Both the position numbers and the translations under genes were made by a program. The notes beneath the pieces were generated by a model. That model saw nothing but the letters and a program-made list of their open reading frames with translations, ran no database searches and was not told where the DNA came from. From an uncultured Alphaproteobacteria bacterium (GTDB lineage: Bacteria > Pseudomonadota > Alphaproteobacteria > CAAHEQ01 > UBA3637), in the NCBI GenBank assembly GCA_944390205.1, contig CALXPF010000005.1, positions 1 through 34,887 of the forward strand: a stretch of DNA of 34,887 bases, given 5' to 3'. The number at the start of each line of letters is the position of its first letter. Position 1 is the stretch's first letter. Positions 14,503 through 32,081 of this stretch are shown here, piece by piece.

Positions 14503-17500
14503 CTATTTGTCGTTTTGGTTCAACTCAACGTCCAACCCCAAAGAACGCATTTCTTTGACCAAGACGTTAAATGATTCCGGAATACCCGATTCGAAGTTAT
14601 TATCCCCTCGAATAATTGTTTCGTAAGCTTTAATACGACCGGAAACATCATCGGATTTAATCGTCAACATTTCTTGCAACGTATAGGCGGCTCCGTATGC
14701 TTCCAAAGCCCACACTTCCATTTCACCAAATCGTTGACCACCAAACTGAGCTTTACCGCCGAGCGGTTGTTGTGTCACCAAGCTGTATGGTCCGATAGAC
14801 CGAGCGTGAATCTTCTCATCAACCAAATGGTGTAATTTCAGCATATACATATAACCGATTGTCACCTTTCGATCAAACGGTTCACCCGTCAATCCATCAT
14901 ATAACGTCACTTGACCGGATGTATCAAGACCCGCCATCTCAAACATATGATTGATATCATCTTGATGAGCTCCGTCAAAAACAGGAGTTGCAATCGGCAA
15001 TCCGTCTCTGAGATTCTCAGACATGGCCAATAATTGCTCATCTGTCATATCTGCTACTTTATTATTGTACTCTCGATCGCCGTACACCTCTTTTAATTTA
15101 GCTCTCAAATCATCCGTTTTGGCTTGTTTGGCCTTAATATTGTCAACAATCTGACCGATTTGACGACCCAATTCATGGCAGGCGTACCCTAAGTGTGTTT
15201 CCAAAATCTGACCGACATTCATACGAGACGGCACACCCAAAGGATTCAACACGATATCCATCGGCGTTCCATCTTCCGTATACGGCATATCCTCAACAGG
15301 TAAAACACGCGAAATAACGCCTTTATTTCCGTGACGACCGGCCACCTTATCACCGGGTTGCAACTTCCGTTTCGTGGCAATAAAGACCTTAATTTTCTTT
15401 AATTCTCCGGCCATCATTTCATCACCGCGTTGCAATTTTTCAACTCGATTTTCAAATTTTTCTTGCAACTCTTTTTCGGCCTGATTTAAAGTCTCGATCA
15501 ACTGCTCAATTTCAGCCATGACCTGATCATCGGCAATGGAAATTTTCCGCAAATTGTAATTGGCGACATCGGACAAAACAGCTTCCGTTAAAACCGTTCC
15601 GGCTTTAATCCCTTCGGCTTTTGTCACTTTTTGACCAATTAACAAAGAACGAATTCGATCATAGAAGCTTCCTTGAATAATGGCTTTTTCGTCATCTCGA
15701 TCTTTAGCCAATCGACTGATTTCAGCCTGTTCAATGGACAAAGCTCTTTCATCTTTTTCAATGCCTCGGCGTGTAAAAATACGCACATCGACAACGGTTC
15801 CATAGACCCCCGGCGGAACGCGCAAAGAAGAATCTCGAACGTCAGCTGCCTTTTCACCGAAAATTGTTCTGAGCAACTTTTCTTCCGGTGTCATGATTGT
15901 TTCACCTTTCGGTGTCACCTTACCAACCAAAATATCTCCGGCTTTCACTTCGGCACCGATATAAACGATACCCGTTTCATCCAGATTTTTCAATCCTTCT
16001 TCACCGACATTCGGAATATCCCGTGTAATTTCTTCTTGTCCCAATTTGGTATCGCGGGCCACCACTTCAAACTCTTCCAAATGAATGGAGGTAAACACAT
16101 CATCTTTTGCAATGCGTTCGGAAATCAAAATAGAGTCTTCATAGTTATACCCGTTCCACGGCATAAAGGCGACCAAAACATTTCGGCCCAAAGCCAACTC
16201 ACCCAATTGTGTACAAGGACCATCGGCGATGATATCACCCTTTGTCACCACCTCGCCTGTTTTAACAAGCGGTTGTTGTGTCATACAAGTTCCTTGATTG
16301 GAACGTTGGAATTTTTCCAATGTATAAATATCAACGGCCGACGAGGTTGAAGACAGATCATCCGTTGCCCGAATAACAATACGAGAAGAATCCACTTGTT
16401 GAACAACACCGGAACGACGAGCCACAATAGCCACTTTTGAATCTCTGGCAACCTTTCCTTCCATTCCCGTTCCGACAAGAGGAGCCTCATTTTTCAACAA
16501 AGGGACACCTTGTTTTTGCATGTTAGAACCCATCAAGGCCCGGTGAGCGTCATCGTTTTCCAAAAACGGAATTAAAGAAGCGGCAACCGACACGACCTGT
16601 CGGGGATCAACATCCATCAAGTCCACCTCTTCACGTTTTGACAAGATTGCCTCACCCTCATGACGCGCCATCACAAATTCTTCGGAAAAAGCGCCGTCTT
16701 TTGTTAATTTTGCATTGGCCTGCGCAATGATATGAGAAGCCTCTTCCATGGCAGACAAATAGACCACATCGTTTGTCACTTTACCATCAACAACTTTTCG
16801 GTACGGGGTTTCGATAAATCCGTACTTGTTGATTTTTGCGTAAGATGCCAATGAGTTAATCAATCCGATGTTTTGGCCTTCCGGCGATTCAATCGGACAG
16901 ATACGGCCATAGTGTGTCGGATGAACGTCACGCACTTCCATACCGGCACGATCTCGCGTCAATCCGCCCGGTCCCAAAGCAGATAACCGGCGTTTATGTG
17001 TAATCTCGGAAAGTGGATTATTTTGATCCATAAATTGTGACAACTGAGAAGACGCAAAAAATTCACGAACAGCTGCAGATAGCGGTTTTGCATTAATTAA
17101 ATCATACGGCATCACCGAATCAATTTCACTGGATGTCATTCTTTCACGAATCATGCGTTCCATTCGCAATAAGCCCAAGCGATATTGATTTTCCATCAAT
17201 TCACCAACGGAACGAACCCGTCTGTTTCCTAAATTATCAATATCATCAATTTGACCTTTTCCGTCTTTTAATTCGACCAAAGTCTTTAAAATTTTAAGAA
17301 TATCTTCTTTTCTTAAAACACGAACCGAATCCGGAACTTCATTCAAATCAAAGCCCAGACGAGCATTCATTTTGACACGGCCGACAGACGATAAATCATA
17401 CCGCTCTAAATCAAAAAACATGCTTCGGAACAAAGCATCTGCCGTTTCAACAACCGGTAATTCACCGGGGCGCATAATTTTGTAAATATCAATTAACGCC

Positions 17501-18681
17501 TCTTCACGGGTTGTGTTTTTATCGGCGACCAACGTATTGCGAATATATGGTCCGACATTAACATAATCGATATGCAAGACGGAAATTTCTTTAACCTTTA
17601 AAGCCTCCAGTTGAGCAATGTCATCTTCCGTGATTTCATCACCGGCTTCCATCACGACTTCACCCGTATTTTCATCGATAAAATCCGTTGCCACAAAGCG
17701 CCCGATCAGGTCTTCCGAACTGACACGAAATTCTTCCAATCCGTCTTTTTGAAGCTTTTTGGCTTTCGCCATATTCAGTTTTTCGCCTTTTTCCAAAACG
17801 ACTTTTCCGGTTTTGGCATCAATCAAATCAAAAGGAAGTTTAACACCTTTCATTAAAGCGGGGACAAAAGCCGTTTTCCAGCCTTTTTTATCTTTTTTGA
17901 AAACGATCTTTTCATAGAAATAAGACAAAATTTCTTCTTTGCTCATTCCAAAAACATCCGCCGGATCTATTTCAACGCCTTCAGCTTTTGCCTCCAAGCG
18001 TTTTTGAGCCGTTTCTTCACTATCTAACGCATACAACAAAGAAGAAACCGGCAATTTCCGACGACGGTCAATACGCACATAGACCAAATCTTTGGCGTCA
18101 AATTCAAAATCAATCCAAGACCCGCGGTACGGAATGACACGGGCAGCGAATAAAAACTTTCCGGACGAATGGGTCTCACCGTTGTCATGATCAAAGAAAA
18201 CACCGGGGGAACGGTGCATTTGAGAAACGACGACTCGCTCCGTCCCATTGACAATAAACGTTCCTCTTTCCGTCATGAGGGGCAAATCGCCCATATAAAC
18301 ATCTTGTTCTTTAATATCCCGAATAGACCGCATTCCGGTCGCTGCATCAACATCCCAAACAACCAGTCTTAAAGTCGCCCGAACCGGAGCAGCATAAGTC
18401 AAAGATCTTTTTAAACACTCATCGACATCAAACTTTGGCTCATCTAATTCGTACTTCACAAACTCCAAATCGCCTCGACCGGCAAAATCATGGATCGGGA
18501 AAATAGATTTAAAAACTTCTTGGAGACCAATATCTTCTCTTTTCGAAACAGGAACACCCCATTGCAAGAATTGATTGTAAGAACTGGTTTGAACCTCGAT
18601 TAAATTTGGCATTTCGACAACCGGTTCAATTCGGCCAAAATTTTTACGAACTCTTCTGCGATTTATTTCGGATTTGATCAT
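14503..18681 (-). CDS. rpoB: RNA polymerase beta subunit
   Basis: A 1392-residue beta subunit. The N-terminus after the chosen start ([20 protein letters not shown]) aligns with the usual alphaproteobacterial RpoB beginning. The ATG at 18681 has GGGGA eight bases upstream, whereas the in-frame ATG at 18696 has only an A-rich leader. The rifampicin region ([20 protein letters not shown] and [15 protein letters not shown]) is the sensitive-type sequence, with Asp, His and Ser at the main resistance positions. Other landmarks are [20 protein letters not shown], the [12 protein letters not shown] motif and the C-terminal [20 protein letters not shown]. It lies between rplL and rpoC. Confidence 0.97.
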
Positions 18682-18793
18682 GTGCGTAATCCCCATTTTT
18701 TTATTAACACTCTCGACTAAAAGGAGTCGGATCCTTAACTCGTGTCCAATTTAGAGGCATTGGAACCTTGACTTTCGTCTTTTTAGCGGTATC

Positions 18794-18827
18794 GGGTCGA
18801 CACCAATTAAGTCAATTGATGCGACCC
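18794..18827 (-). promoter_or_regulatory. Stem-loop in the rplL–rpoB spacer
   Basis: GGGTCG (18794–18799) pairs with CGACCC (18822–18827). Inside it CAATT (18804–18808) pairs with AATTG around AAGTC. The spacer is about 170 bases (18682–18851), the largest inside the operon. In other bacteria this spacer holds an attenuator and an RNase III site; the same role here is inference. No U run was seen. Confidence 0.5.
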
Positions 18828-18851
18828 AATTCCAGCTTTTTTGAAATAAAA

Positions 18852-19217
18852 TTATTTCAATTCAACCTTAGCGCCAGCGGCTTCGAGTTGTTTTTTGATT
18901 TTTTCAGCTTCGTCTTTGGAAACACCCTTCTTTAATTCTTTCGGGGCACCTTCGACTAAGTCTTTAGCTTCTTTCAAACCCAATCCGGTGATTGTACGAA
19001 CTTCTTTAATGGCAGCAATTTTATTAGCACCACCATCTGTCAAAATAACATCAAATTCTGTTTTTTCTTCAGCGGCAGCAGCAGCGGCACCGGCAGCAGC
19101 AACAACGGGAGCTGCAGCGGAAACGCCCCATTTTTCTTCCAACATTTTGGATAATTCAGCAGCTTCCAAGATTGTTAAAGCTGATAATTCATCAACAATT
19201 TTATTTAAATCAGTCAT
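18852..19217 (-). CDS. rplL: Ribosomal protein L7/L12
   Basis: A 121-residue stalk protein that recruits translation GTPases to the ribosome. The N-terminal dimer domain ([20 protein letters not shown]) is joined by an Ala-rich hinge (about 35–50) to the C-terminal domain with [20 protein letters not shown] and [20 protein letters not shown]. Length and layout are normal. It follows rplJ with a 50-base gap and has the AAGGAATATAAAA site before ATG. Confidence 0.97.
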
Positions 19218-19267
19218 TTTTATATTCCTTTTTTATAAAGTTTAATTAAAGTATCGTTTGTCAAAAA

Positions 19268-19756
19268 TTAAGCGGCAGCTTGTTCTTTTTCGGAATAAGC
19301 TTTTGTCACGCGTGCCAACTGGCCGGCAGGAGCTTGCAACAAGCCAATCAACTTGCCACGCAATTCGTCCAAAGACGGTAAAGCAGCCAATTCATTGATT
19401 GTCTTTACATCAATTCTTTGTCCGTTCATGACGCCACCGATCACCTCAAAGCGATCATTATCCTTGGCCATTTTCACAACTGCCCGTGCTGCGGAAATCG
19501 CATCATCGGAATAAGCAATTGCGGTAGGACCCGTCATCAAATCAATGATGGATTCACATGGCGTTCCTGCGAGAGCCAATTTTGTCAAACGGTTTTTCGT
19601 CACACGATAGTTTGCTCCGTCATTCAAGACATTATTCCGCAAAGTGGTTGTCTCAGCCATTGTGATCCCATTATTATGTGTCACAACAACCAAAGCCGCT
19701 TTGTTGAAAATCTCTTTCATATCGGAAATCAACTGTTGTTTTTCTTCACGTTTCAC
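19268..19756 (-). CDS. rplJ: Ribosomal protein L10
   Basis: A 162-residue L10, the stalk base that binds L7/L12 dimers. The start is taken at GTG 19756, giving (M)KREEKQQLISDMKEIFNKAA, which matches the usual alphaproteobacterial N-terminus. GGAG lies nine bases upstream. An in-frame TTG at 19786 would add ten residues but has a weaker ribosome site. Conserved parts include YRVTKNRLTKLAL, TGPTAIAY and LIGLLQAPAGQLARV, and the C-terminal helix (TKAYSEKEQAAA) that holds L7/L12. It is preceded by a long structured leader. Confidence 0.95.
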   Translation of the reverse strand: MKREEKQQLISDMKEIFNKAALVVVTHNNGITMAETTTLRNNVLNDGANYRVTKNRLTKLALAGTPCESIIDLMTGPTAIAYSDDAISAARAVVKMAKDNDRFEVIGGVMNGQRIDVKTINELAALPSLDELRGKLIGLLQAPAGQLARVTKAYSEKEQAAA

Positions 19757-19789
19757 GACTTTTGTCTCCGTTATTTTTGAATTCAAGAT

Positions 19790-19975
19790 TACTCTTGTCT
19801 TCTGGTTTACATTTGGTTTTTAAAGATCCTCTCTAAAAACCCTCTTTTTTCCTGCCCAGAAAACTCGTTCTTTCATTCCCATTGGAATAACTGACTTATT
19901 TTCTGTCTATGCCGGTGGGATGCTTCCCTTTACTCTTATCCCGTGATAAGCACCAACAGTCTCGGACAGGTTATT
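19790..19975 (-). promoter_or_regulatory. L10-leader-like structured mRNA region (rplJL control)
   Basis: The 260-base rplA–rplJ gap holds nested pairings. A hairpin CTTATC (19935–19940) / GATAAG (19945–19950) is flanked by CACC (19951–19954) pairing with GGTG (19914–19917), and outside that ACAG (19956–19959) pairs with CTGT (19903–19906). A separate 8-bp stem lies at 19815–19841. Position and layout resemble the known leader bound by the L10–L7/L12 complex to repress rplJL. Assignment is by context and pairing only. Confidence 0.6.
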
Positions 19976-20017
19976 CGAAAGGTAATTTTCTTTTTCAAAA
20001 AAATTACCTTTCAATTT

Positions 20018-20710
20018 TTATCCATTAATGCTGGATAAAGCAACTTTCACACCAACTCCCTGAGTCGTACTCAAAGCAACTTGCTTTAAGTAAACACCCT
20101 TAGAAGAAGCCGGCTTCATACCATTAAGCGTTTTCACGAAAGCAATGACATTTTCTTTGATTTTGTCATCTGCAAAGCTTACCTTTCCGATACCGGCATG
20201 AACAATACCCGTCGAGTCGACACGGAATTGAACTTGTCCGGCTTTGGCAGCCTTAACGGCATCCGCGACATCCATTGTCACCGTTCCCAACTTGGGGTTT
20301 GGCATTAACCCTTTCGGGCCTAAAATCTTACCGATCCGGCCGACAAGACCCATCATGTCCGGTGTTGCAATAAGACGTTGGAAATTAATATTTCCCGCCA
20401 TAATACTATTCATTAAATCTTCATCACCGACAATATCCGCTCCGGCTTTTTTAGCTTCTTCGGCTTTGGGTCCTTTTGCAAACACCGCAACCGACAAAGT
20501 CTTTCCCGTTCCGGCCGGCAATGAAACCGCACCACGAATCATTTGATCCGATTGACGCGGATCTACACCCAAGCTAACGGCAATATCAACCGTTTCGTCA
20601 AACTTACCCGATGCGTTGGCTTTAATTGTTTTGATCGCTTCATCCAATTCATATGCTTTGGATGTATCAACCGTTTCGTAAGCTTTTCTTAATCTTTTTC
20701 CGTATTTCAT
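20018..20710 (-). CDS. rplA: Ribosomal protein L1
   Basis: A 230-residue L1 of normal length, which binds 23S rRNA at the E-site stalk and usually represses its own operon. Conserved parts include [35 protein letters not shown] and QVRVDSTG-like [19 protein letters not shown]. It starts four bases after the rplK stop with a GGAGTAAGAAG ribosome site, so the pair is tightly coupled. Confidence 0.97.
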
Positions 20711-20714
20711 CTTC

Positions 20715-21143
20715 TTACTCCACTACATCGATACCCATTGAACGGGCTTGTCCCGCGACCATTTCCATTGCAGCCTCAACCGAATGACAATTCATGTCCG
20801 GCATTTTTTGAGTGGCAATTTCCTTAATTTGCGCCTTTGTAATTTTAGCAACCTTCTTACGTCCCGGTTCTTTAGACGCACTCTTCACATTAGCGGCTTT
20901 TTTAATTAAATAGCTCACCGGAGGCAATTTTGTCACAAATGTGAATGTCCGATCGGCATAAGCCGTAATGATAACGGGAATCGGTGTGCCCGGTTCCATT
21001 TTTTGCGTCTTTGCATTGAACGCCTTACAAAACTCCATAATATTCAACCCACGTTGACCCAAAGCCGGTCCGACGGGAGGTGACGGATTTGCTTTACCGG
21101 CTTCGATCTGAAGCTTAATAAAGCCAATAACTTTTTTTGCCAT
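20715..21143 (-). CDS. rplK: Ribosomal protein L11
   Basis: A 142-residue L11, part of the GTPase-associated centre and the thiostrepton-binding site. Standard N-terminal [20 protein letters not shown] with the conserved Pro residues, then [13 protein letters not shown], and the rRNA-binding C-terminal domain ending [17 protein letters not shown]. Ribosome site GAGGTTATAAA precedes ATG. Confidence 0.97.
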
Positions 21144-21210
21144 TTTATAACCTCATTAAAAAAATCCAATTCATTGAACAATTTCTTGTCGAAGTTCTGT
21201 GGTCTGATGT

Positions 21211-21263
21211 TGGCGCATCCGCCACACAGAAAGAGGATCCGAATTGGTTTGATCCCCCTCTTT
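21211..21263 (-). promoter_or_regulatory. Two hairpins in the nusG–rplK spacer
   Basis: The first is TGGCG (21211–21215) / CGCCA (21220–21224). The second has GGATC (21235–21239) pairing with GATCC (21251–21255), extended outward by AAAGAG and CTCTTT. The second could attenuate after nusG, and the region is where an L1 autoregulatory site would be expected, but I cannot match the L1 motif with certainty. Confidence 0.4.
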
Positions 21264-21268
21264 AAACA

Positions 21269-21796
21269 CTACGCTTTTTTAACCTGCGCATAATCCAAAT
21301 CTAACGGAGTCATTCGTCCAAAAATAGAGACCGAGACCTTTAATCGTTCTTTTTCCGAATCTACCTCTTCAACCGTTCCCGTGAAAGAAGCAAACGGACC
21401 CTCTATAACACGAACCTGCTCACCCACCTCATACGAAACAACGGCTTTGGGTTTTTCAACCCCCTCTTTAACTTGATGTAAAATACGCATGGCTTCAGCC
21501 TCGGTAATCGGAGTCGGCTTTTTACCGCCCAAGAATCCCGTCACCTTCGGAGTCGAATTGACCATATGCCATGTTTCGTCCGTCATTTCCATTTTAATCA
21601 AAACATATCCCGGAAAAAATTTTCTTTCCGTTTCAACTTTTGTTCCGTTTCGGACACTGATAACACTTTCCGTCGGAACCAAAACCTGCTCAAATTTATC
21701 AGTTAGTCCCTTTTTTTCCGCCTGTTCTTGAATAAAAGCGGCAATTCTGTTTTCAAATCCGGAATAAGTATGAACAACGTACCACCGAATAGCCAT
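21269..21796 (-). CDS. nusG: Transcription antitermination/elongation factor NusG
   Basis: A 175-residue NusG. The NGN domain starts WYVVHTYSGFENRIAAFIQE and contains RKFFPGYVLIKMEM and VTGFLGGKKPTPI. The C-terminal KOW domain has GEQVRVIEGPFASFTGTVEE and ends LDYAQVKKA. It binds RNA polymerase and couples it to Rho or the ribosome. It begins four bases after the secE stop. Confidence 0.97.
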   Translation of the reverse strand: MAIRWYVVHTYSGFENRIAAFIQEQAEKKGLTDKFEQVLVPTESVISVRNGTKVETERKFFPGYVLIKMEMTDETWHMVNSTPKVTGFLGGKKPTPITEAEAMRILHQVKEGVEKPKAVVSYEVGEQVRVIEGPFASFTGTVEEVDSEKERLKVSVSIFGRMTPLDLDYAQVKKA

Positions 21797-21799
21797 TCA

Positions 21800-21988
21800 C
21801 TAACCTCCCAAAATCAACCGAATCATTGCTGCAAAAACCAAATCGATCAAAAACAAAAATAAAGCCAGGACGACACTCATAACAATAACGGTTAAAGTTC
21901 CCTGCATGGTTTCCGCTCGTGTTGGCCAAGTGACCTTTGAAATTTCCTGTTTTACTTGACGAACGAACTGTGCCGGCGTTGTTTTCAT
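21800..21988 (-). CDS. secE: Preprotein translocase subunit SecE
   Basis: A 62-residue short-type SecE with one membrane helix. The conserved cytoplasmic helix FVRQVKQEISKVTWPTRAE is followed by the membrane segment at about 31–58 (LTVIVMSVVLALFLFLIDLV). It stabilises SecY in the translocon. It lies between tRNA-Trp and nusG, the common order. Confidence 0.95.
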   Translation of the reverse strand: MKTTPAQFVRQVKQEISKVTWPTRAETMQGTLTVIVMSVVLALFLFLIDLVFAAMIRLILGG

Positions 21989-22009
21989 CTTTAATTCCTT
22001 CTCCTTTAA

Positions 22010-22085
22010 TGGCAGGGGCGGCAGGGATCGAACCCGCGACCTTCGGTTTTGGAGACCGACGCTCTACCAGTTGAGCTACACCCCT
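22010..22085 (-). tRNA. trnW: tRNA-Trp (anticodon CCA)
   Basis: A 76-base cloverleaf with encoded CCA end. The acceptor stem AGGGGTG pairs with CGCCCCT (one G·U). The D arm has GTAGCTCAACTGGTAGAGC. The anticodon stem TCGGT/ACCGA holds loop CTCCAAA with CCA. The T arm is CGGGTTCGATCCCTG-like. It lies 21 bases ahead of secE and is probably co-transcribed with it. Confidence 0.97.
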
Positions 22086-22140
22086 TTTCTTATCTTTTAG
22101 CTTTTAAAACGAATCACATACTTAAACGATAAGACGAGTT

Positions 22141-22169
22141 ATGATAAACAACTCAAAACAAAATGTCAA
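22141..22169 (-). promoter_or_regulatory. Promoter of tRNA-Trp–secE–nusG operon
   Basis: Minus strand: TTGACA (22169–22164), exactly 17 bases, TATCAT (22146–22141). It lies about 55 bases ahead of the tRNA. Confidence 0.8.
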
Positions 22170-22465
22170 GTCTTTTTTAATCCCCCCTTAATTTTTTGTT
22201 AACCGATCATACTCCTCTCACAGACCCCATTTTGAAATTTTGTCCTCTTTTTATTTTGGTTCACGTTTAATCATCATATAAATAATCAAGTTTCCCTTTT
22301 GGGATCATTTTGTTTTCAATTAAGAGGCAAGATCATGATATCACTTAAGGATATACCCTGATCACAAAACCAAAAAAATAACAAAGAAAATAATACATTG
22401 AAAAGACCTTTTTTGTCGCAAGAAAAGGATCGTTTTTTTGAAACGCTTTTTGGATCAAAAAAACC
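22170..22465. other. AT-rich intergenic stretch
   Basis: No gene with a ribosome site on either strand. It contains the first copy of a 22-base direct repeat near its right end. Otherwise I see nothing I can name. Confidence 0.5.
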
Positions 22466-22518
22466 TTGATTTTCTGCCCTCCTTTCGTGTATAAAAAAAA
22501 GGATCGTTTTTTTGAAAC
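22423..22518. repeat. 22-base direct repeat ahead of the prepilin-like gene
   Basis: AAAAGGATCGTTTTTTTGAA followed by AC occurs at 22423–22444 and 22497–22518, 74 bases apart. Similarity continues loosely beyond (gcttttTGGA / agttttGGAG). The second copy forms the mRNA leader; the first lies upstream of the promoter. Confidence 0.8.
22466..22495 (+). promoter_or_regulatory. Candidate promoter of the prepilin-like gene
   Basis: TTGATT (22466–22471), 18 bases, TATAAA (22490–22495), followed by a leader and GGAGAG just ahead of ATG 22536. Confidence 0.5.
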
Positions 22519-22535: not shown

Positions 22536-24476
22536 ATGTTCAAAGATTTGTTTTTTAAGTCAAAATTAAGCACACAAAAACAAACAACAAAACAAGAGTC
22601 GGGTCGGTCGATGGTGGAGATGTTGGGGGTACTCACGATTATGGGGCTTCTCTCAATCGGGGCGATTGCGGGGTATCGCCATGCGATGGATCAATATAAA
22701 GCCAACGAGACAATCAATGAACTGACGCTTCGGGCGGTGAGTGTGGGCGAACAGGTGCGACAAAACAAAGGGACGCTCACAATGGATGAATTCCCGGTGA
22801 TAACAAGACAAGGGTATCCCGTGACGGCGTTTCGAGAACCGGATGATCCGAAACTGTTTGAGTTAGAAGTGACGCATGTGCCCGTGGGGGTGTGTCGCAA
22901 GATTTTAAAGATGGGCTGGAAACTCCCTGTTTTGATGAAAGCCAATGAGATTGTGTATGGAGGGAACGACTTGATCTGTGAACCGAGCGAGATGGATAAC
23001 AGAGAAACGGCCACTATGGTGTTTTTGTTTGATGAGGATCTGGACGAGACGGCACTGCCCAATTGGTATTGTGAGGAAGATTCGGATTGTAATGCTTGCC
23101 AACGGTGTCAAGAGAACATTTGTGTGTCCTCTTGCGAGGGGTATGAGCGGTGTGCTCAAGACACGGAGACGGGGGAACAGATCTGTTGCCCGAAAGAGAG
23201 ACGCTCAGGCCCCTATTGTTGTGCCAAAGCCGTCAACGGGATGTGCTGTAATGAGAACGATCAGTGTTGCCCATGGCATAAGCCCCTGATTGGGAAAGAT
23301 GGCAACTGTTATTCATGTGACAATGAAGCAGGTGTGGATGTGACCGGCGTAGAAGAGAATTGTGGCGTTTGTACGAACAGAGAACTATGGGAGAGAACAT
23401 CCTTTAATATTCAATGTGTGATCCCGTGTCAGAAAGATGCCCCTCTCAGACAAGACAACGGAAAATGTTATTCCTGTGATTATCCAGATCCAATAGTTAT
23501 TTCTCATACAACCGATTATTGTGAAACTATATGCCCTAATCGAGTAGCAAATGGATGGTTAAATAGATATTGTTCTTTCCCCTGTGGGGAAGGAACATTT
23601 ACAGGAGGTGACGGGAAATGTTATTCCTGTGATGAAGAAAAAAGTGTGGGTGTTGATAGTGTTTCTCATGATGGATGTGATCAATGTGATAATCGGACAC
23701 AAGTCGGAAATTATTGTGTGTTAGACTGTCCCAAAGAGGAAATAAAAGGAGATGACGGGATTTGTTATCCCTGTGATCATTCTGATCCGATTACAATTTA
23801 TAATGCTCTTAATTATTGTAGTAATATTTGTCCTAATCGTGTAGTAAATGGATGGCACGATAGGCTGTGTTCACTTCCGTGCGGAGAGGAGGAAAGATTT
23901 ACAGGGGCAGATGGTAAATGTTATTCGTGTGATGAAACAAAACCGATTAATATGGATGGTGTTTCTCATGATGGGTGTGAGCTCTGCCCTAATCGAACTT
24001 TATCTGGGAACTATTGTATTTTAAATTGTCCTACCAAAGAAATCAGAGGAAGTGACGGAAAGTGTTATTCCTGTGATCATTCTGATCCGATTACAATTTA
24101 TAATGCTCTTAATTATTGTAGTAATATTTGTCCTAATCGAATTGCCAATGGATATCATAATCAACGGTGTTCCATCCCCTGTAAAGAAGGAACATTTACG
24201 GGGGCTACGGGTAAATGTTATTCCTGCGATGAAGAGAAAAATATTGATGTGAATAGTGTTTTTCATGAGGGGTGTGAACGGTGTCCCAATACAAGGAATT
24301 TATATAATCTCATGTGTGTTCCGAAGTGCTCGGGAGATTCACCGCTTCGAGGATCGGATAACAAGTGCTATCCGTGTGATACGGAAACACGTATTCCGGT
24401 CACGAATATGACGGATGCGTGTTATGAGTGCGCCGATCAACGAAAGTTGGATGGAAGTCATTGTGTGTTAAAGTAA
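22536..24476 (+). CDS. Prepilin-like protein with long Cys-rich repeat array
   Basis: A 646-residue protein. Residues about 20–55 form a type IV prepilin-like N-terminus: a polar leader ending SG, then RSMVEMLG with Glu at +5, then a hydrophobic helix (VLTIMGLLSIGAIAGY). The +1 residue would be Arg instead of Phe/Met. A pilin-like domain follows to about 170. After that the chain is Cys-rich, with eight G-x-CY(S/P)CD modules alternating between two types. One carries HSDPITIYNALNYCSNICPNR and the other VDSVSHDGCxxCxNRT. The repeat period is about 100 residues. Start ATG has GGAGAG five bases upstream. It is probably exported by a type II/IV pilus-like machine and held by many disulfides (inference). 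No machine gene is in the window. A terminator follows. Confidence 0.75.
   Translation: MFKDLFFKSKLSTQKQTTKQESGRSMVEMLGVLTIMGLLSIGAIAGYRHAMDQYKANETINELTLRAVSVGEQVRQNKGTLTMDEFPVITRQGYPVTAFREPDDPKLFELEVTHVPVGVCRKILKMGWKLPVLMKANEIVYGGNDLICEPSEMDNRETATMVFLFDEDLDETALPNWYCEEDSDCNACQRCQENICVSSCEGYERCAQDTETGEQICCPKERRSGPYCCAKAVNGMCCNENDQCCPWHKPLIGKDGNCYSCDNEAGVDVTGVEENCGVCTNRELWERTSFNIQCVIPCQKDAPLRQDNGKCYSCDYPDPIVISHTTDYCETICPNRVANGWLNRYCSFPCGEGTFTGGDGKCYSCDEEKSVGVDSVSHDGCDQCDNRTQVGNYCVLDCPKEEIKGDDGICYPCDHSDPITIYNALNYCSNICPNRVVNGWHDRLCSLPCGEEERFTGADGKCYSCDETKPINMDGVSHDGCELCPNRTLSGNYCILNCPTKEIRGSDGKCYSCDHSDPITIYNALNYCSNICPNRIANGYHNQRCSIPCKEGTFTGATGKCYSCDEEKNIDVNSVFHEGCERCPNTRNLYNLMCVPKCSGDSPLRGSDNKCYPCDTETRIPVTNMTDACYECADQRKLDGSHCVLK
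23473..24250 (+). repeat. About 300-bp coding repeats in the Cys-rich array
   Basis: Bases 23770–23839 are identical to 24070–24139, a spacing of exactly 300. A more diverged earlier copy begins at about 23473, 297 bases before. Each period holds two Cys-rich modules. Confidence 0.85.
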
Positions 24477-24494: not shown

Positions 24495-24531
24495 AAAATA
24501 AAAAAAAGAGGTTGTTAAACCTCTTTTTTTG
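24495..24531. terminator. Bidirectional terminator between convergent genes
   Basis: AGAGGTT (24507–24513) / AACCTCT (24518–24524), loop GTTA, with long A and T runs on the two sides. It serves the prepilin-like gene and kdsB. Confidence 0.92.
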
Positions 24532-24542
24532 TTGGGTTCACA

Positions 24543-25316
24543 TCAAAATAAAAATTGCTGTGCTTCCGATAGTTCCTCGGGTGTATTGACATCCGCCGGA
24601 GCTTCTTCAATCAATTTAACACTGGGAACAACCAAGGCATATATACTCATTCCGTTTTCCAATGCTCTTAATTGTTCCAATTTCTCAATATTCTCCAAAA
24701 CACCAACCGGATAAGAAACAAACTTTTTAAGAGCTTCCGTTCGATAGACATAAATCCCGATATGCCAATACGCAAAATGATATTCCGGAACATCATCTCG
24801 ATTGAACGGAACCGGACTTCTTGAAAAATAAAGAGCCCGACCAAAATTCTCGCCTTCTCTCAATCCCATAGCAATTTTAACATGAGCCGGATCTTGAATC
24901 TCATTAGAATCGGTTATTTTCATTCCGACCGTCACAATATCTGCCCCGGTTTTTTCCATAATATCAACCAATTGCAGATTTAATTTGGGATCTACATTAA
25001 TTCCGTCCCCTTGAAAACTAACGGCAATATCATATTTTTCACCTGTCGGATCAATCTCACGAAGGGCTGCCGCAATTCGATCCGTACCGGATGGAAGAGA
25101 TGGATCCGTCAAAACACACCGAGCCCCAAAACTTTGAGCCACATCAATAATCTCTTGATCTCCCGCCGCAATATAAACATCTTCTGCCGGATGAACCTGA
25201 ATCGCATGCTCGTACACATGTTGAATGAGGGGCTTTCCGTTGATTATCGCTAACGGTTTGTTTGGTAAACGCGTTGATTTTAAACGAGTCGGTATTAAAA
25301 CAGCTACTTTAGACAT
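24543..25316 (-). CDS. kdsB: CMP-Kdo synthetase (3-deoxy-manno-octulosonate cytidylyltransferase)
   Basis: A 257-residue enzyme that makes CMP-Kdo from CTP and Kdo for lipid A inner core synthesis. The nucleotide-binding start IPTRLKSTRLPNKPLAIINGKP is typical. VLTDPSLPSGTDRIAAAL, VSFQGDGINVDP (QGD motif) and the region SRSPVPFNRD followed by HIGIYVYR match the family. In the family the QGD Asp and a downstream Asp position magnesium. Its start overlaps the end of the HIT gene by 13 bases, so it is part of the ppa operon. Presence implies a Kdo-containing LPS. Confidence 0.95.
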   Translation of the reverse strand: MSKVAVLIPTRLKSTRLPNKPLAIINGKPLIQHVYEHAIQVHPAEDVYIAAGDQEIIDVAQSFGARCVLTDPSLPSGTDRIAAALREIDPTGEKYDIAVSFQGDGINVDPKLNLQLVDIMEKTGADIVTVGMKITDSNEIQDPAHVKIAMGLREGENFGRALYFSRSPVPFNRDDVPEYHFAYWHIGIYVYRTEALKKFVSYPVGVLENIEKLEQLRALENGMSIYALVVPSVKLIEEAPADVNTPEELSEAQQFLF

Positions 25317-25711
25317 AACTCAAATTCCTTTCTGATCTTTTCAATAATCTCTTTCTTTGAATCCCCTAAATAAGGAATTCCCGGAACTCCCCAAACCGTC
25401 CCCGGCCAACAGGCATCTGTTTGATAACGACAAATAACATGTACATGTAATTGAGGTGTCATGTTTCCAATCATTGCCACATTTGTTTGATCCGGATTAA
25501 AAAGGCGTGTCATAACTTTTTCCGCTATCTCAATTTCCTTCATCAAAACAAGGCGTTCTTCTGTTGTCAAATCCAACATATTTCGAACATTTTCTTTTTT
25601 AGGAACCAAAAAAATCCACGGACAATTCGCATTATCCTCAAACAAAACCTTACAAAACGGAAGATCGCAAACATAATCTTTTTTTTGTAAAGCCGGATGA
25701 AGTTGAAACAT
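25304..25711 (-). CDS. HIT-family nucleotide hydrolase
   Basis: A 135-residue HIT-domain protein of the small proteobacterial type. The catalytic triad region reads MTPQLHVHVICRY, with Gln in place of the first His of the HxHxHx motif. This Gln form is common in this subfamily, so activity may persist. An upstream WIFLVPKKENVRNMLDL stretch also fits. Relatives hydrolyse dinucleoside polyphosphates or nucleoside phosphoramidates; the substrate here is unknown. It lies in the ppa–HAD–HIT–kdsB group and overlaps kdsB. Confidence 0.85.
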   Translation of the reverse strand: MFQLHPALQKKDYVCDLPFCKVLFEDNANCPWIFLVPKKENVRNMLDLTTEERLVLMKEIEIAEKVMTRLFNPDQTNVAMIGNMTPQLHVHVICRYQTDACWPGTVWGVPGIPYLGDSKKEIIEKIRKEFELCLK

Positions 25712-25726
25712 TTTTTCTCCTTTCTC

Positions 25727-26620
25727 TTAAGCGGATATTCTAGCATTCACATCACCGACGACTTCCAAAATATAATCCGGATTGCCCATATGATGTTCTG
25801 CCAAAAGATCGGCTATTTTTTCTCCTTTTTTTAACAAGCGTGAAACCACCCCCGTATGTGTGACTAAAACAGTCTTCATGCCGGCGTTTTTCCCACCCTC
25901 AATATCTGTTCGAAGCGTATCTCCGATCATCAAAGACGTTTGAGGATTTGCTTTTGTTCGTTGAAAAACATACCGATAAATATTTGCATACGGCTTTCCG
26001 ATCCAACAAACGTGTCCCCCATTTTCTTCATACCACTTTCCGAGAGCACCGTTAGCCGGAAAAGATTCGTCCCCCTTCATATATGTATAATCCGGATTGG
26101 CACAAACAGCCGGTAATTTTTTTTCGAGAGCCTCTCGCATAAACGGAATAAACGGGTCAATCGTTGTCACGGCCACGCCATTCAAATCCAAACCGCTTAA
26201 ATAAATAATATCTGCTCTTGAAACATCTTTAACAGATCGAATGGACATCCCCTTAAACAATGCGGGATTCGACCGTCCGACTGTATAACAAGCCGGTTTT
26301 TTCAAAGATGTCAATTGCTCAAATAATCCTTCTTGAATCATAAAACGACAGGCATCTCCGGACGTGATATAATCATCGTAATGAACACCTAAAATCAATC
26401 CTTTTTTTTCTTTTTGAGGAATTGAATAAGCAGATAATTCGGTTGAATTCGATAAAATGTAAATATGCTTTCCAACCGCTTTCAACTCCTTAAGAGTATC
26501 AAGAACATAAGGATAAAATTGGTTCCCATCCCATAAAACACCCCATAAATCAAAAAATAAATTCGTGTATTCAGACGGAAAATCCAAACCGGTTTTTAAA
26601 TAACAAGAAAATAAGCTCAT
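25727..26620 (-). CDS. HAD class IIA hydrolase (NagD-like)
   Basis: A 297-residue HAD-superfamily IIA phosphatase. Motif I is [11 protein letters not shown], motif II is YILSNST, motif III Lys is in [12 protein letters not shown], and motif IV is [13 protein letters not shown]. The Asp of motif I is the expected nucleophile. The layout agrees with the alphaproteobacterial subgroup of hypothetical IIA hydrolases. The substrate is unknown, perhaps a sugar or nucleotide phosphate. It overlaps the ppa stop by four bases (translational coupling). Confidence 0.88.
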
Positions 26621-27165
26621 TCAGAATATCCGGGTAATTTTGTTTTAACACTTTCATATAAACGAACGGCTTGACGAATTAAATCCTTCGCCTCGATCGG
26701 ACCTAAAAATGTCTCGATTTTAACTTCTTTTTGTTCCAAAACCTTATAATCTTCAAAAAAGCGTTGCAAAATTTTAAGAATATGAGGCGGTAATTGATCA
26801 ATATGTGTGTATCCGTTATATTCGGGATCGTCTTCATGAATGGCAATAATCTTGTCATCCGACTCGCCATTATCAATCATTTTAATAACCCCGATCGGGC
26901 GAGCTCTCATAATACAAAGCGGGCAAACCGGAACTTGACCCAAAACCAATATATCTAACGGATCGTTATCTTCCCCGTACGTTTGCGGGATGAATCCGTA
27001 GTTTGCCGGATAATGAACAGAAGAATATAAAATTCGATCAACTTTTACCAATCCGCTTTTTTTATCGAGCTCATACTTGATCTGGGATCCTTTCGGAACC
27101 TCAATAATAGCCGGAACAATATCCGGAAATGCGTCATAATGTTTAACCTGATGCCAGGGATGCAT
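26617..27165 (-). CDS. ppa: Inorganic pyrophosphatase (family I)
   Basis: A 182-residue soluble family I pyrophosphatase, the usual bacterial size. It hydrolyses PPi and so pulls biosynthetic reactions forward, including the CMP-Kdo step made by the kdsB product in the same group. Visible signatures are [27 protein letters not shown], the acidic metal site [11 protein letters not shown] and [11 protein letters not shown] ribosome site AGAAAGGAATTT precedes the ATG, and a good promoter lies just upstream. Confidence 0.97.
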
Positions 27166-27201
27166 GATAAATTCCTTTCTTAATATAAGACAATGGATAG
27201 T

Positions 27202-27230
27202 ATTTTAAAATCTTTAAAATATCCTGTCAA
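27202..27230 (-). promoter_or_regulatory. Promoter of ppa–HAD–HIT–kdsB
   Basis: Minus strand: TTGACA (27230–27225), 17 bases, TAAAAT (27207–27202), about 37 bases before the ppa ATG. Confidence 0.75.
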
Positions 27231-27248
27231 GACGAAAAAATTCAACGC

Positions 27249-27262
27249 CAAAGGATCCTTTG
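27249..27262. repeat. 14-bp perfect palindrome
   Basis: CAAAGGATCCTTTG lies 18 bases upstream of the ppa -35 and within the virB4–ppa spacer. It could be an operator or part of a weak virB4 terminator; no strong U run follows. Confidence 0.5.
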
Positions 27263-27316
27263 AGCCGGCCTGTCCTTCCTAAAATTTTTATGCGAATTGA
27301 TAAAAAATCTCCTTTG

Positions 27317-29761
27317 CTAGGCTCTCTCTAAATATGCTTGAACAAGCGCATCCGTGTCATTCAACTGTTTAGAAAGCTGTTCTGCCAACAAAACATTTTT
27401 ATTTCCGGATGAATAAACTTTTAAATACGGTCCTAAACCACTCAAATCAACATCCAAAATAACAGATTCATGAATGGCGGGTCGAGAAACCAAAATAGCA
27501 TACTTTCTGTCTGCAAATTCTTTTCCCATAATAAAATTCATTTCTCGAGGCGTCAAATTCCATGTGGCATAATCCGATGGATTGGCTTGCGGATTACGGA
27601 AGAAAATAACGGTTTGACATTGACCGCGGATCACATCCCCCAACCCATTGTCATCCAAAAAGCGAGGCTGTTGGAAAGCGCACAGGAAGGCCTGTCGTTT
27701 CTTTCGGCCCTCTCGCAAACCGACAATAAAGCTTTCTTTAAACATGGGGTGTTCCAACATCGGTGCGGTTTCATCAATCATAATTAAAGAAGGAGTTCCC
27801 ATAGCAGTTGCCAATGTGTGAATTCTATGCATAACATAACTGATAACCGCCGGAGCCAAAACGCTATCTTGGAAAATAGTCGTGAAATCAAAAGCCATAT
27901 ATCGACTGGACAAATCCAAATTATCCGTTACGGAGTTAAAAATACGCCCATACTGATCATCATTCACCCAACGGAATAATTCTCTACGCATAAATCCGTT
28001 CGGAGCAAAACAACTCTTATACAGGTTCTTAAGAAGCCGTTCACTGGGATCCAAATATTCAAATGCGGTTGTGACGGCACGGGCGATTTCTTGTTCGGAA
28101 ACGGCATCCGTTCCCCCCGTAATATCTCGCACCCATGTTCTTAAAAAGGCTCTGTTATCAGAGGTATCCGGAACGGCAAACGGATTTAAAGAAACCGATT
28201 CGGCTCCTCCGTCAAATCGAACATACGGGGCGTTTTGCATTAACGCAAACACCTTTGCACCATTATTACGATCAAAGAAATAAGTATGTAAATCCGGAAT
28301 TCTCATGGACTGTCCGGCCATAAACGAGAAAAATGTCGTCTTACCTTGACCGGTCGGTCCGATTAAAGCGGTATGAGCAACGGCATACGGCTCTTCCGAA
28401 ACGTGAAATTGAAAGGCGTACGCCGTTCCGGTAATTGTTCGGAAATAAGAAAGAGGAACATTGCCCCAATCAGATTTCTGACGTCCCTCCGCCGTTTTGT
28501 CAATACAAATACCGCAAGCAACCACTCGAGACAGATACATAAATGTTCTCGGATAAACTTCATATGTCGGGAATTGAGAAAAGAAAACAGCCTGTGCCGC
28601 CCAACCGTCTCGCACCGGCGTCACATTATGCAACCGACAAATTTTTTCAACCTCTTCTTGCCCAAATTGAAGCTCTTCTTTAGAATCGCCGAAAATAAAG
28701 ACAGACATGGCATATTCATTCAGAGTCTGCCCATCGGCATCCGACTGATCCATCCACTCCAAGGCCGTGTTATACTGTGCCTGAACATTCTGAGAAAATG
28801 TGGTTAAATAAGCCATACGCCTTTGTTGAATAAGCAAGAAATTTGCTTTAACATGAGGGATTGACTTAATGTTATGAATGACATTTAATTCACAGTCAAT
28901 ACTGATAATATCGGCGACCATCTGTTCATCCATAAAATCCCCCGGTTTTCGAATCCCTATACAGATAGCCAATTTTTCACGATCACCCGAAAAGAACTTG
29001 ATAATCCCCTCATCCTTTGTAAAATGGATATAATCACCCGTCAGTAATGCATTTAAATAATCCCCTTGCTCCCCGTTAATAAGGGGTTTTGGATTTGATA
29101 AGGGGCTAACTAACTGAGCAAAAACCCAAAACGGACTTTTATCTTGATGTTTATAAGGAGTTTTTTCCGAAATAAGAACCGGTTCATACATATCTAAAAT
29201 AGATGTCAACGCATTAGAGGCTTGTTGAAGATCTTTCATAGCGGTTTTTCTATCATTAACGGACAGAATAATGTAATGCTTATTTCTGAAAATACGATGT
29301 AAACTTTCAATCCATCGGGTCGAAATGGCCTGTAATAGTTTACTGTCTTTATAAAGCTTTTCCTCATGCAACGGAACTTTTTCACGAATGGTAATCACAC
29401 GAGAAACAATCTCAAGCTCCGCCATGGAATCAATCCATTGTTTGCGAGCATCAGCCAGAGCGGCACGTTCTTCCGGTAAAAGTAAGGTTGTGTCGGCACC
29501 TTTCACCTCAAAAACACGCGCCAAAGAATTATTGCGCAAATGAATGGTTGCGCCGTCTTCATCCAATCGGCTAAAGGGTAAAAAGTCAGAAACTCTTGTT
29601 TCACGAGGCTTGGGGAGAATAATATCCCCCAACTTTGTCACAAAAACAGACATAATCAACATAGCGGCAAGCACACCGATAACAGCCACTATCGTTGAAA
29701 ATGAGCTGGCACTTTGCAACAACATATCCATAACACCCATATCAACCGCTATTTCATTCAT
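27317..29761 (-). CDS. virB4: Type IV secretion ATPase, VirB4 family
   Basis: An 814-residue VirB4-type ATPase that powers substrate transfer and pilus assembly at the inner membrane. Walker A is GPTGQGKT at about 468–475 and Walker B is LIMIDE at about 659–664. The C-terminal GLREGRKKRQAFLCAFQQP and IFFRNPQA segments are typical. An N-terminal membrane segment at about 22–44 (STIVAVIGVLAAMLIMSVFV) precedes the CagE/TrbE-type domain; this extra helix is not universal in VirB4. It follows virB3 with a 62-base gap; AAGGAT lies upstream of the ATG. No other secretion genes are in the window. Confidence 0.93.
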   Translation of the reverse strand: MNEIAVDMGVMDMLLQSASSFSTIVAVIGVLAAMLIMSVFVTKLGDIILPKPRETRVSDFLPFSRLDEDGATIHLRNNSLARVFEVKGADTTLLLPEERAALADARKQWIDSMAELEIVSRVITIREKVPLHEEKLYKDSKLLQAISTRWIESLHRIFRNKHYIILSVNDRKTAMKDLQQASNALTSILDMYEPVLISEKTPYKHQDKSPFWVFAQLVSPLSNPKPLINGEQGDYLNALLTGDYIHFTKDEGIIKFFSGDREKLAICIGIRKPGDFMDEQMVADIISIDCELNVIHNIKSIPHVKANFLLIQQRRMAYLTTFSQNVQAQYNTALEWMDQSDADGQTLNEYAMSVFIFGDSKEELQFGQEEVEKICRLHNVTPVRDGWAAQAVFFSQFPTYEVYPRTFMYLSRVVACGICIDKTAEGRQKSDWGNVPLSYFRTITGTAYAFQFHVSEEPYAVAHTALIGPTGQGKTTFFSFMAGQSMRIPDLHTYFFDRNNGAKVFALMQNAPYVRFDGGAESVSLNPFAVPDTSDNRAFLRTWVRDITGGTDAVSEQEIARAVTTAFEYLDPSERLLKNLYKSCFAPNGFMRRELFRWVNDDQYGRIFNSVTDNLDLSSRYMAFDFTTIFQDSVLAPAVISYVMHRIHTLATAMGTPSLIMIDETAPMLEHPMFKESFIVGLREGRKKRQAFLCAFQQPRFLDDNGLGDVIRGQCQTVIFFRNPQANPSDYATWNLTPREMNFIMGKEFADRKYAILVSRPAIHESVILDVDLSGLGPYLKVYSSGNKNVLLAEQLSKQLNDTDALVQAYLERA

Positions 29762-29823
29762 TCTCGTATCCTTACCTGATTAAATAATTTTTTAACGTTA
29801 AAAAATAAGACACTTTTTTCTCC

Positions 29824-30111
29824 TTAAGGGGCTAACTTATTTCCCCGAGACGGATAAACATTTTTGGAGGGCGTAGACAACGGACCTGCCGCCTTCATCA
29901 TATTCGACAAATGTGGTTCCCGAACACTGTAAATGATAATAATGACATGAACAATCAAAATCGTTCCGATAAAAAAAATCGGGTTTTGACCGGCAGCAAT
30001 CCACATAAACATAATAGGTGCCTGTACGGCAAAATTGGCAACCGCCGGTATCATGGGCGCCCAAAAAACACGTGGAGGCATGGCAACGGCTTTTAAAATA
30101 GGTTCACGCAT
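29824..30111 (-). CDS. virB3: Type IV secretion inner-membrane protein, VirB3 family
   Basis: A 95-residue protein from ATG 30111, which has GAGGAAGAG directly upstream. A longer frame starting near 30291 would add a Lys/Phe/Ile-rich tail of 60 residues with no ribosome site and is rejected. Two membrane segments (ANFAVQAPIMFMWIAAG and FFIGTILIVHVIIIIYSV) and the short VRxPxL-like ending (VREPHLSNMM) match VirB3. In known systems VirB3 works with VirB4 next to it, as here. Confidence 0.82.
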   Translation of the reverse strand: MREPILKAVAMPPRVFWAPMIPAVANFAVQAPIMFMWIAAGQNPIFFIGTILIVHVIIIIYSVREPHLSNMMKAAGPLSTPSKNVYPSRGNKLAP

Positions 30112-30308
30112 TCTCTTCCTCTTTATTCTGCTTTCATATGTTTTTTTTATCATAATCCAAATGAAAATAAAATAACAGAAAAAAATGATTTTCCTTGACT
30201 TTTTTTTGAAAAAAAGGCATTTTGAGACCCGTACCAGTAAAAAGATAAACATCGATAAATCACATAATCTCATCCGATGTTTGAAATACAAACTGAAAGA
30301 GTAAAATC

Positions 30309-30596
30309 ATGAGTTTTAATGAAACAACCATTCAAAACATATCTAAACTGGCCCGTCTTCGTTTACCGGAAGATCAGCAACAAAAATTTATGACTGATAT
30401 CGCCGGTATTTTAGATTGGGTCGAACAATTAAAAGAAGTGGATATTGAGCATGTTGAACCTCTTGTATCCGTTTCAACAAGACAAAAGGCGGAACGAAAA
30501 GATGAAGTCAGCGTTGGCAATTTACAAACAGAGCTTATGGAATGCGCCCCTGATTCCGTACAAGGGTTTTATGTCGTTCCTAAAATGGTGGAGTAA
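30309..30596 (+). CDS. gatC: Asp/Glu-tRNA amidotransferase subunit C
   Basis: A 95-residue GatC, the small stabilising subunit of the GatCAB complex. ISKLARLRLPEDQQQKF, ILDWVEQLKEVDIEHVEPLV and FYVVPKMVE are standard. It is divergent from virB3 and begins the gatC–gatA–gatB operon; the next gene follows after three bases. I could not fix a convincing promoter in the gap. Confidence 0.95.
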   Translation: MSFNETTIQNISKLARLRLPEDQQQKFMTDIAGILDWVEQLKEVDIEHVEPLVSVSTRQKAERKDEVSVGNLQTELMECAPDSVQGFYVVPKMVE

Positions 30597-30599
30597 AAG

Positions 30600-32081
30600 A
30601 TGACCGAATTAACAGATTTATATATTTCCGAGGCGCTGGATTTATTGGAGAAAAAAGAGATTTCCTCAGAAGAATTAACAAAAGCGCATTTGAAAGAAAT
30701 GGAAAAAGCTCGTTTTTTAAACGCTTATATTACGGAGACGCCGGAATTGGCATTGGAACAAGCCCGCTTATCTGATCAACGCAGATCTGCCGGCATTCAA
30801 CCCAAACCTTTAGAGGGAATTCCGATTGCCAATAAAGATCTCTACTGCACAAAGGGTATTCGAACAACCGCAGCTTCTAAAATTCTTTCTAACTTTATCC
30901 CTCCCTATGAATCAACCGTCACACAGAAATTAAAAGATGCCGGAACGATTATGCTCGGAAAGGTCAATACCGATCAATTTGCAATGGGCGGATCAACCAT
31001 GACAAGTTATTTTGGTGTCACCAAAAATCCGTGGACAGATGAGAACGGCGAATATAATCTGGTCCCCGGCGGTTCGTCCGGCGGTTCGGCGGCAGCCGTT
31101 TCCGCGGGGCTTTGCATGGGGGCTACCGGTTCGGATACCGGCGGATCCATTCGACAACCGGCATCATTTTGCGGTATAACGGGAATTAAACCGACTTATG
31201 GTCGTTGTTCTCGGTATGGAATTGTGGCATTTGCCTCTTCTTTGGATCAGGCAGGACCAATGGCTCGTTCCGTCAAAGATTGCGCTCTTTTATTACGGGA
31301 AATAGCCGGATTTGATGTCCATGATTCAACGGTTTCGGACTTACCCGTTCCGGATTACACAAAAGCATTGACAGGAGATATTCGAGGGAAAAAAATCGGA
31401 ATTCCGAAAGAATATCGTCCGGATGGTCTGAATGCGGAAGTCGCCCGAATTTGGGATAAAGGAATACAATTTTTAAAAGAAGCCGGCGCCGAAGTGGTTG
31501 ACGTGTCTTTACCACATACAAAATATGCTTTACCGGTTTATTACATTATCGCTTGTGCCGAAGCCTCCTCTAATTTATCTCGATATGACGGGGTCAGATA
31601 CACGACAAGAGTGGACGGAAAAACACTGGACGAAATGTATGAAAATACGAGAACAGACGGTTTTGGTGCCGAAGTGGTTCGCCGAATTTTATTAGGAACA
31701 TTCGTACTTTCCGCCGGATTTTATGATGCTTATTACATTCGGGCTCAACGGGTTCGTCGTTTAATTTATGAAGATTTTCAAAATGTGTTTAAAACCGTGG
31801 ATGCATTACTTGTTCCGGCGGCTCCGACACCGGCGCTCTCTTACGAAGCGATGAAAAACATGAGTCCTGTCGATACATATCTGGGGGATGTTTTTACAAC
31901 GCCCAGTTCATTAGCCGGCGTTCCGGCGCTTTCATTGCCGATAGGATTATCCAATAACGGTCTGCCGATCGGATTACAAGTTATTGGAAATCATTTTGAT
32001 GAAAATACGGTCTTCCAAATTGCCGATGTTTTAGAAAAACAAGCCGGCTTTGAAAAACGGCCCCATCGGGTGAAAGGATAA
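30600..32081 (+). CDS. gatA: Asp/Glu-tRNA amidotransferase subunit A
   Basis: A 493-residue amidase-signature subunit that releases ammonia from glutamine or asparagine for conversion of misacylated tRNA. The catalytic Ser–cisSer–Lys set is visible: Lys in [11 protein letters not shown], Ser in [12 protein letters not shown], and the Gly/Ser-rich [15 protein letters not shown]. Length is normal. It sits in order C–A–B, with gatB starting five bases after its stop. The gatCAB set supplies Gln-tRNA, and possibly Asn-tRNA, by the indirect route; which one cannot be told here. Confidence 0.97.

Follow-up and report, generated by a model that had tools for sequence, protein, structure and literature searches.

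Giant modular prepilins, probably of type IVb, in an uncultured alphaproteobacterial lineage: a dispersed gene family whose variable cassettes are probably swapped among fixed loci by homologous recombination

The major pilin of Neisseria is varied by the pilE/pilS system, in which a single expressed gene is accompanied by silent cassettes devoid of promoters. PilV of the IncI plasmids R64 and TP114 is an adhesin encoded by one gene with clustered invertible segments, which are rearranged at sfx sites by the recombinase Rci (PMC9045228). In the modular type IV pilins, such as PilB of S. sanguinis and CofB of ETEC, a small pilin module is joined to a bulky extra module; a location at the pilus tip and a role in adhesion have been proposed for these proteins, and multi-domain cases of up to 860 aa are described (PMC8179133).

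The window analyzed here, that is, the whole stretch of 34,887 nucleotides, is contig C5 of a 1.3-Mb draft genome that is 79% complete (G000, hereafter the own genome). On its forward strand it carries a gene for a giant modular prepilin of 646 aa (22536–24476, stop codon included), and the open reading frame is as delimited in a first-pass annotation made from the letters alone. The ATG at 22536 (MFKDLFF...) is preferred as the start because a Shine-Dalgarno-like GGAG lies upstream of it and the start region aligns in the paralogues. The product begins with MFKDLFFKSKLSTQKQTTKQESG, directly followed by RSMVEMLGVL, which constitutes a class III signal (ESG/RSMVEMLGVL, the slash marking the predicted cleavage site); the leader of 23 aa (22536–22604) is hydrophilic and ends in Gly(-1), encoded by 22602–22604, and prepilin peptidase would cut before the Arg codon at 22605. 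Arg+1 and Glu5 follow, the latter within a stretch of about 21 hydrophobic residues, so that the whole signal spans 22536–22667. Pfam N_methyl is a weak hit, which counts against a pilin, but Gly(-1) and Glu5 are invariant across genera in a 13-row alignment; the assignment to the prepilin-type proteins, made in the first-pass annotation, is supported.

Downstream of the leader, the gene consists of an N-arm (22605–23429) encoding the pilin domain and a first Cys-rich domain, a variable cassette of 288 codons with three A+B module pairs (23430–24293), and a C-arm comprising the conserved last 60 codons (NLYN...CVLK; 24294–24473). The N-arm is a mosaic with about 90% DNA identity among the paralogues of both species considered below, and the C-arm is about 80% identical between paralogues. 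All eight CY(S/P)CD modules that had been noted in two alternating kinds were recovered (in order CYSCDNEAG, CYSCDYPD, CYSCDEEKS, CYPCDHSD, CYSCDETKP, CYSCDHSD, CYSCDEEKN, CYPCDTET); the alternation is strict in the central six, where A modules are mostly about 51 aa and B modules mostly about 48 aa long. Variable positions fall between the invariant Cys and CPNR positions. The structure model shows one long helix (residues 27–76, encoded by 22614–22763), the predicted pilin α1 helix, then a strand-rich part and, from residue 251 on, a Cys-rich rod. The helix and the rest of the pilin domain are modeled with low confidence; the rod mostly reaches a pLDDT of 75–93, with about 80–93 for the modules of the cassette, which bears out the modular Cys-rich extension proposed earlier. 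A pilin part is thus followed by a confidently modeled array of extra modules, as in modular pilins. The whole protein matched nothing in Pfam or NCBIfam, nor, by sequence, in the PDB; a Foldseek comparison of the model with the PDB returned weak, untrusted matches, such as the type IVb pilin CofA (E 0.88) and megalin (low TM-score).

The gene lies between two genes on the minus strand, an upstream one at 21269–21796, which we take to be nusG, and a downstream one at 24543–25316, presumably kdsB-like, both named from their sequences. Sister contigs, from the draft genome of a sister species (G001, uncultured Alphaproteobacteria assembly CASECF01), match either side: the 5′ flank (16174–22439; nusG, rplK, rplA, rplJ, rplL, and part of rpoB) is 92.7% identical to C20, which terminates inside the N-arm of another giant prepilin, and the 3′ flank (24501–31209; the kdsB-like gene onward) is 93.5% identical to C6, by which the window locus is orthologous in the sister species. 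Further downstream (27317–29761) lies a gene for a VirB4-family type IV secretion ATPase (TIGR00929, below the curated cut-off), with no obvious T4SS cluster around it within the window.

Two palindromes on the forward strand mark the leader of the gene, GAAAAGGATCGTTTTT with one mismatch at 22422–22437 and, 74 bp downstream, AAAAAGGATCGTTTTT at 22496–22511, which follows the pattern exactly and is situated just upstream of the start codon. The paired 16-bp palindrome AAAAAGGATCSTTTTT, its copies 74 bp apart, precedes giant genes at other loci too. With one mismatch allowed, the window contains three matches against 0.02 expected; exact matches, counted on both strands, number 18 in the own genome and 36 in the sister, and the reversed control gave none. 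Several matches lie at contig ends, as is expected because the giant loci are broken by assembly. Folding of the leader as RNA was not clearly better than that of shuffled sequences; the palindrome may be a regulator site, a terminator, or an aid to recombination.

The window gene is one of many. A query with its N-terminus matched 26 places in the own genome, among them short prepilins, plausibly major or minor pilins, and many giants, so that paralogues combining the same N-terminus with different C-terminal arrays, for which the first-pass annotation had proposed a search, do exist. Giant modular prepilins are present in at least 12 copies in the 79%-complete own genome and at least 17 in the sister (the copies found of the conserved last 64 residues, the C-arm); the own genome is estimated to carry about 20. 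One further locus (L040; C12 of the own genome, 3873–4913) contains a prepilin reading frame of 190 aa, one in-frame stop, and then a Cys-rich tail similar to the one found in the giant prepilin at L042; it may be a decayed or split giant prepilin. Each of the 43 genomes searched from the same taxonomic family matched the family profile, frequently with dozens of matches and with frames of 400–1100 aa; across the class, 12 of 190 genomes matched, two of them from the same taxonomic family, and the other matches cover mostly the pilin N-terminus. The 26 matches in the own genome and those in all 43 family genomes together indicate that the reading frame and its prepilin character are not due to chance. 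A literature search on the motif, on alphaproteobacterial pilins of the RF32 type, and on gene conversion in Cys-rich minor pilins found nothing.

GRSMVEM is the standard form of the N-terminus throughout the lineage, in short prepilins and giants alike, and residue +1 varies (R, H, or Y). Arg+1 is therefore no evidence for a special peptidase, and the distinct prepilin peptidase specificity that had been read from GRSMVE was rejected; the sole Peptidase_A24 protein matched in the own genome (G000:C44, over the cut-off) keeps both candidate catalytic Asp motifs. The own genome also encodes a T2SSE ATPase and a T2SSF platform protein, located at a contig start, and a PilT-like ATPase; the peptidase and pilus machinery on whose presence the prepilin assignment was to be checked were thus found. 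In the sister genome the same ATPase and platform genes follow genes for a TcpQ-domain protein, a PilN-type secretin (TIGR02520, 1.4e-83), PAP_PilO, and a PilP-like protein (cluster L170). This cluster is a type IVb pilus cluster of the R64/TCP kind, which is partly present in a second genus (G002) as well; the machine found in close relatives is hence a type IVb pilus, and the secretion pseudopilus that had been considered as an alternative finds no support. The giant prepilin genes are not adjacent to the pilus operon, as the position of the window gene between nusG and kdsB illustrates.

For a comparison of the two species, all giant genes and their flanks were extracted from both genomes, the giant reading frames being masked when flanks were compared. 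The flanks pair one-to-one over several kb with about 88–96% DNA identity; the cassettes do not follow them. Nine loci had comparable cassettes, and at only two was the cassette kept (C53/C29, 92%; C15/C33, 98%), whereas a different one was present at the remaining seven, where mean DNA identity was 65%, as against 64% (sd 4%) for random pairs. Some cassettes reappear elsewhere. That of the window has its full-length match, with 89.6% DNA identity, in sister contig C60, which represents the locus of own contig C2 and not that of the window, and the cassette of C2 is in turn 95.6% identical to that of sister contig C16, again a different locus. The C60 locus is anchored on both sides, by own contig C65, which ends exactly in a giant-gene leader, at the 5′ flank and by C2 at the 3′ flank. 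Loci are thus fixed and orthologous, and gene bodies have been exchanged between them.

Where the exchanges end can be seen at matching loci: identity rises from about 60% in the cassette to 90–100% only near the 3′ end of the reading frame and in the flank. A permutation test gave locus-specific similarity for the final 30 nt (p=0.0018), a borderline value for the 30 nt preceding them (p=0.05), and no significance upstream of this end of the C-arm. The breakpoints vary in position along the C-arm. On the 5′ side, most N-arms are cut by contig ends, and in these two draft assemblies the 5′ linkage is known for few copies. In the window gene, the stretch between 60 nt upstream and 120 nt downstream of the Gly codon is 97–100% like that of a third locus, sister contig C73; the sequence that follows is in part most like C60, and the 5′ flank resembles C20. 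Identity among N-arms is 91% inside a species and 90% across the two, as though all of them came from a single pool; a species-specific homogenization of the N-arm, which was also considered, is unsupported by these values.

These data are probably best explained by a family of giant modular type IVb minor pilins whose cassettes are swapped among fixed loci by homologous recombination. Prepilin peptidase would cut after Gly(-1); the N-terminal helix would become part of the packed pilus, and a rod of A and B modules, putatively stapled by disulfides, would project from it, most likely at its tip, to present an adhesin-like surface that would bind ligands. The genes are dispersed, with conserved leader, N-arm, and C-arm surrounding a cassette in which between one and three module pairs were seen, most often two or three; gene conversion between copies, the arms serving as homology, would repeatedly have replaced this cassette at fixed loci, with the consequence that species have loci in common but not the protein at each locus. 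Such inter-locus recombination would diversify what we infer to be a pilus-displayed protein family, and the exchange may be adaptive. Points against this reading are the low model confidence for the pilin domain, the weak N_methyl match, the location of the giant genes away from the pilus operon, the draft state of both assemblies, and the mostly colinear copies of a second genus. A bolder version, programmed surface variation, in which some 20 giant modular minor pilins at fixed loci reshuffle disulfide-rich cassettes at a rate that produces variation inside one population and the leader palindromes mark or initiate the exchange, is possible but, in our view, doubtful.

The cassettes might also have come mainly from outside, other strains supplying divergent alleles of each locus through homologous recombination while the loci themselves exchange little. 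Type IV pili often function in DNA uptake (PMC4471445), which counts for such import, as does the observation that most replaced cassettes are without a full-length partner in the other genome. However, two cassettes occupy different loci in the two species and the start of the window N-arm resembles that of C73, which implies that exchange between loci also takes place; import as the principal cause is accordingly judged unlikely.

Since the genomes are drafts, one may ask whether short reads joined cassettes to wrong flanks by way of the arms, the loci being truly orthologous throughout. Many contigs do end inside the N-arm, where exact runs shared between copies extend up to 140 bp in the own genome and 132 bp in the sister. 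The link between cassette and 3′ flank, however, crosses the C-arm, in which paralogues are only about 80% identical and exact runs do not exceed 56 bp (own) and 82 bp (sister), which argues against misjoining there; the two retained loci show that the assemblies are able to resolve the region; and the seven replaced loci, most of them partnerless at full length, would require many independent misjoins. Such chimaeras are thus a very improbable cause, and because of the short exact runs and the retained pairs we regard the exchange as real, with some residual doubt.

Swapping of the cassettes by a site-specific recombinase (a shufflase or invertase), on the model of the PilV shufflon of R64, is also highly unlikely. 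In its favor, both genomes encode small serine recombinases, which may make some site-specific contribution, the leader palindrome is conserved, and on one sister contig an N-arm faces a cassette head-to-head across a short junction; against it, the breakpoints vary along the C-arm, the sole tyrosine recombinases common to both genomes are two of Xer size, and the copies are dispersed instead of clustered as invertible segments. The head-to-head arrangement (L138; C41, about 640–720) is joined inside CAAAAAAACGATGG; it could have arisen by a microhomology-mediated inversion or else be an artefact of assembly.

The pace of exchange differs within the taxonomic family. In the second genus (G002 compared with G032) most giants are colinear orthologues and one clear replacement was seen (L192 versus L173), in a conserved locus with colinear neighboring copies and with the break some 115 nt upstream of the stop; exchange thus occurs in that genus as well, though more slowly, and a fast pace is not family-wide. 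Separately, the giant prepilins at L173–L179 of G002 contain long, near-identical internal repeats (roughly 150 aa), each gene having its own version, which suggests homogenization inside each gene. A set of stable minor pilins or pseudopilins, each with its own function, whose differences between species reflect ordinary divergence under selection, would suit the colinear copies of the second genus, but is the least probable of these accounts for the genus studied here, where cassettes at matching loci are no closer than random pairs despite flanks of about 88–96% identity and whole cassettes are found at other loci.

Cassette swapping among fixed loci, if it indeed affects pilus-borne adhesins with exchangeable binding modules, would be a third route of type IV pilus diversification, beside shufflons and pilE/pilS, and would offer a testable handle on changing attachment, or on the evasion of phages, hosts, or neighbors, in an uncultured lineage. 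Few luxury genes are expected to persist in bacteria with small genomes, and yet giant Cys-rich pilins take up many loci in this lineage; the family also explains why metagenome assemblies of these genomes break at such genes.

Like the known modular pilins, the window protein has an N-terminal pilin module that carries a bulky extra part; it differs from them in that its modules are without sequence match in Pfam, NCBIfam, or solved structures and that it belongs to a large multigene family with exchangeable cassettes. By analogy with these pilins (PMC8179133) and with the PilV adhesin (PMC9045228), the simplest account is that it is a type IVb minor pilin, probably located at the tip, whose modules would bind ligands. 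The likeness to the PilV shufflon lies in a type IVb-type machine and in an adhesin, here a putative one, with a constant N-terminal and a variable C-terminal part that is varied by DNA rearrangement. PilV, however, is encoded inside its pilus operon, while here about 20 full genes reside at separate loci away from the pilus cluster and have a conserved C-terminal end as well. No dedicated recombinase of the Rci type was identified, the tyrosine recombinases common to both genomes being the two of Xer size, and the copies are dispersed and do not form clustered invertible segments; the family is accordingly not a PilV shufflon. Its conserved 5′ part and its variable cassettes, probably exchanged by homologous recombination, recall pilE/pilS, but the copies look like complete genes for giant pilins with leaders of their own. 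Wherever the 5′ end of a copy is visible, leader, start, and N-arm are present, apart from the one head-to-head copy, which is partial; as there appears to be no single expression site and the copies look complete, the family is not a strict pilE/pilS system either. The family would thus appear to work like R64 PilV or Neisseria pilE/pilS while being a member of neither.
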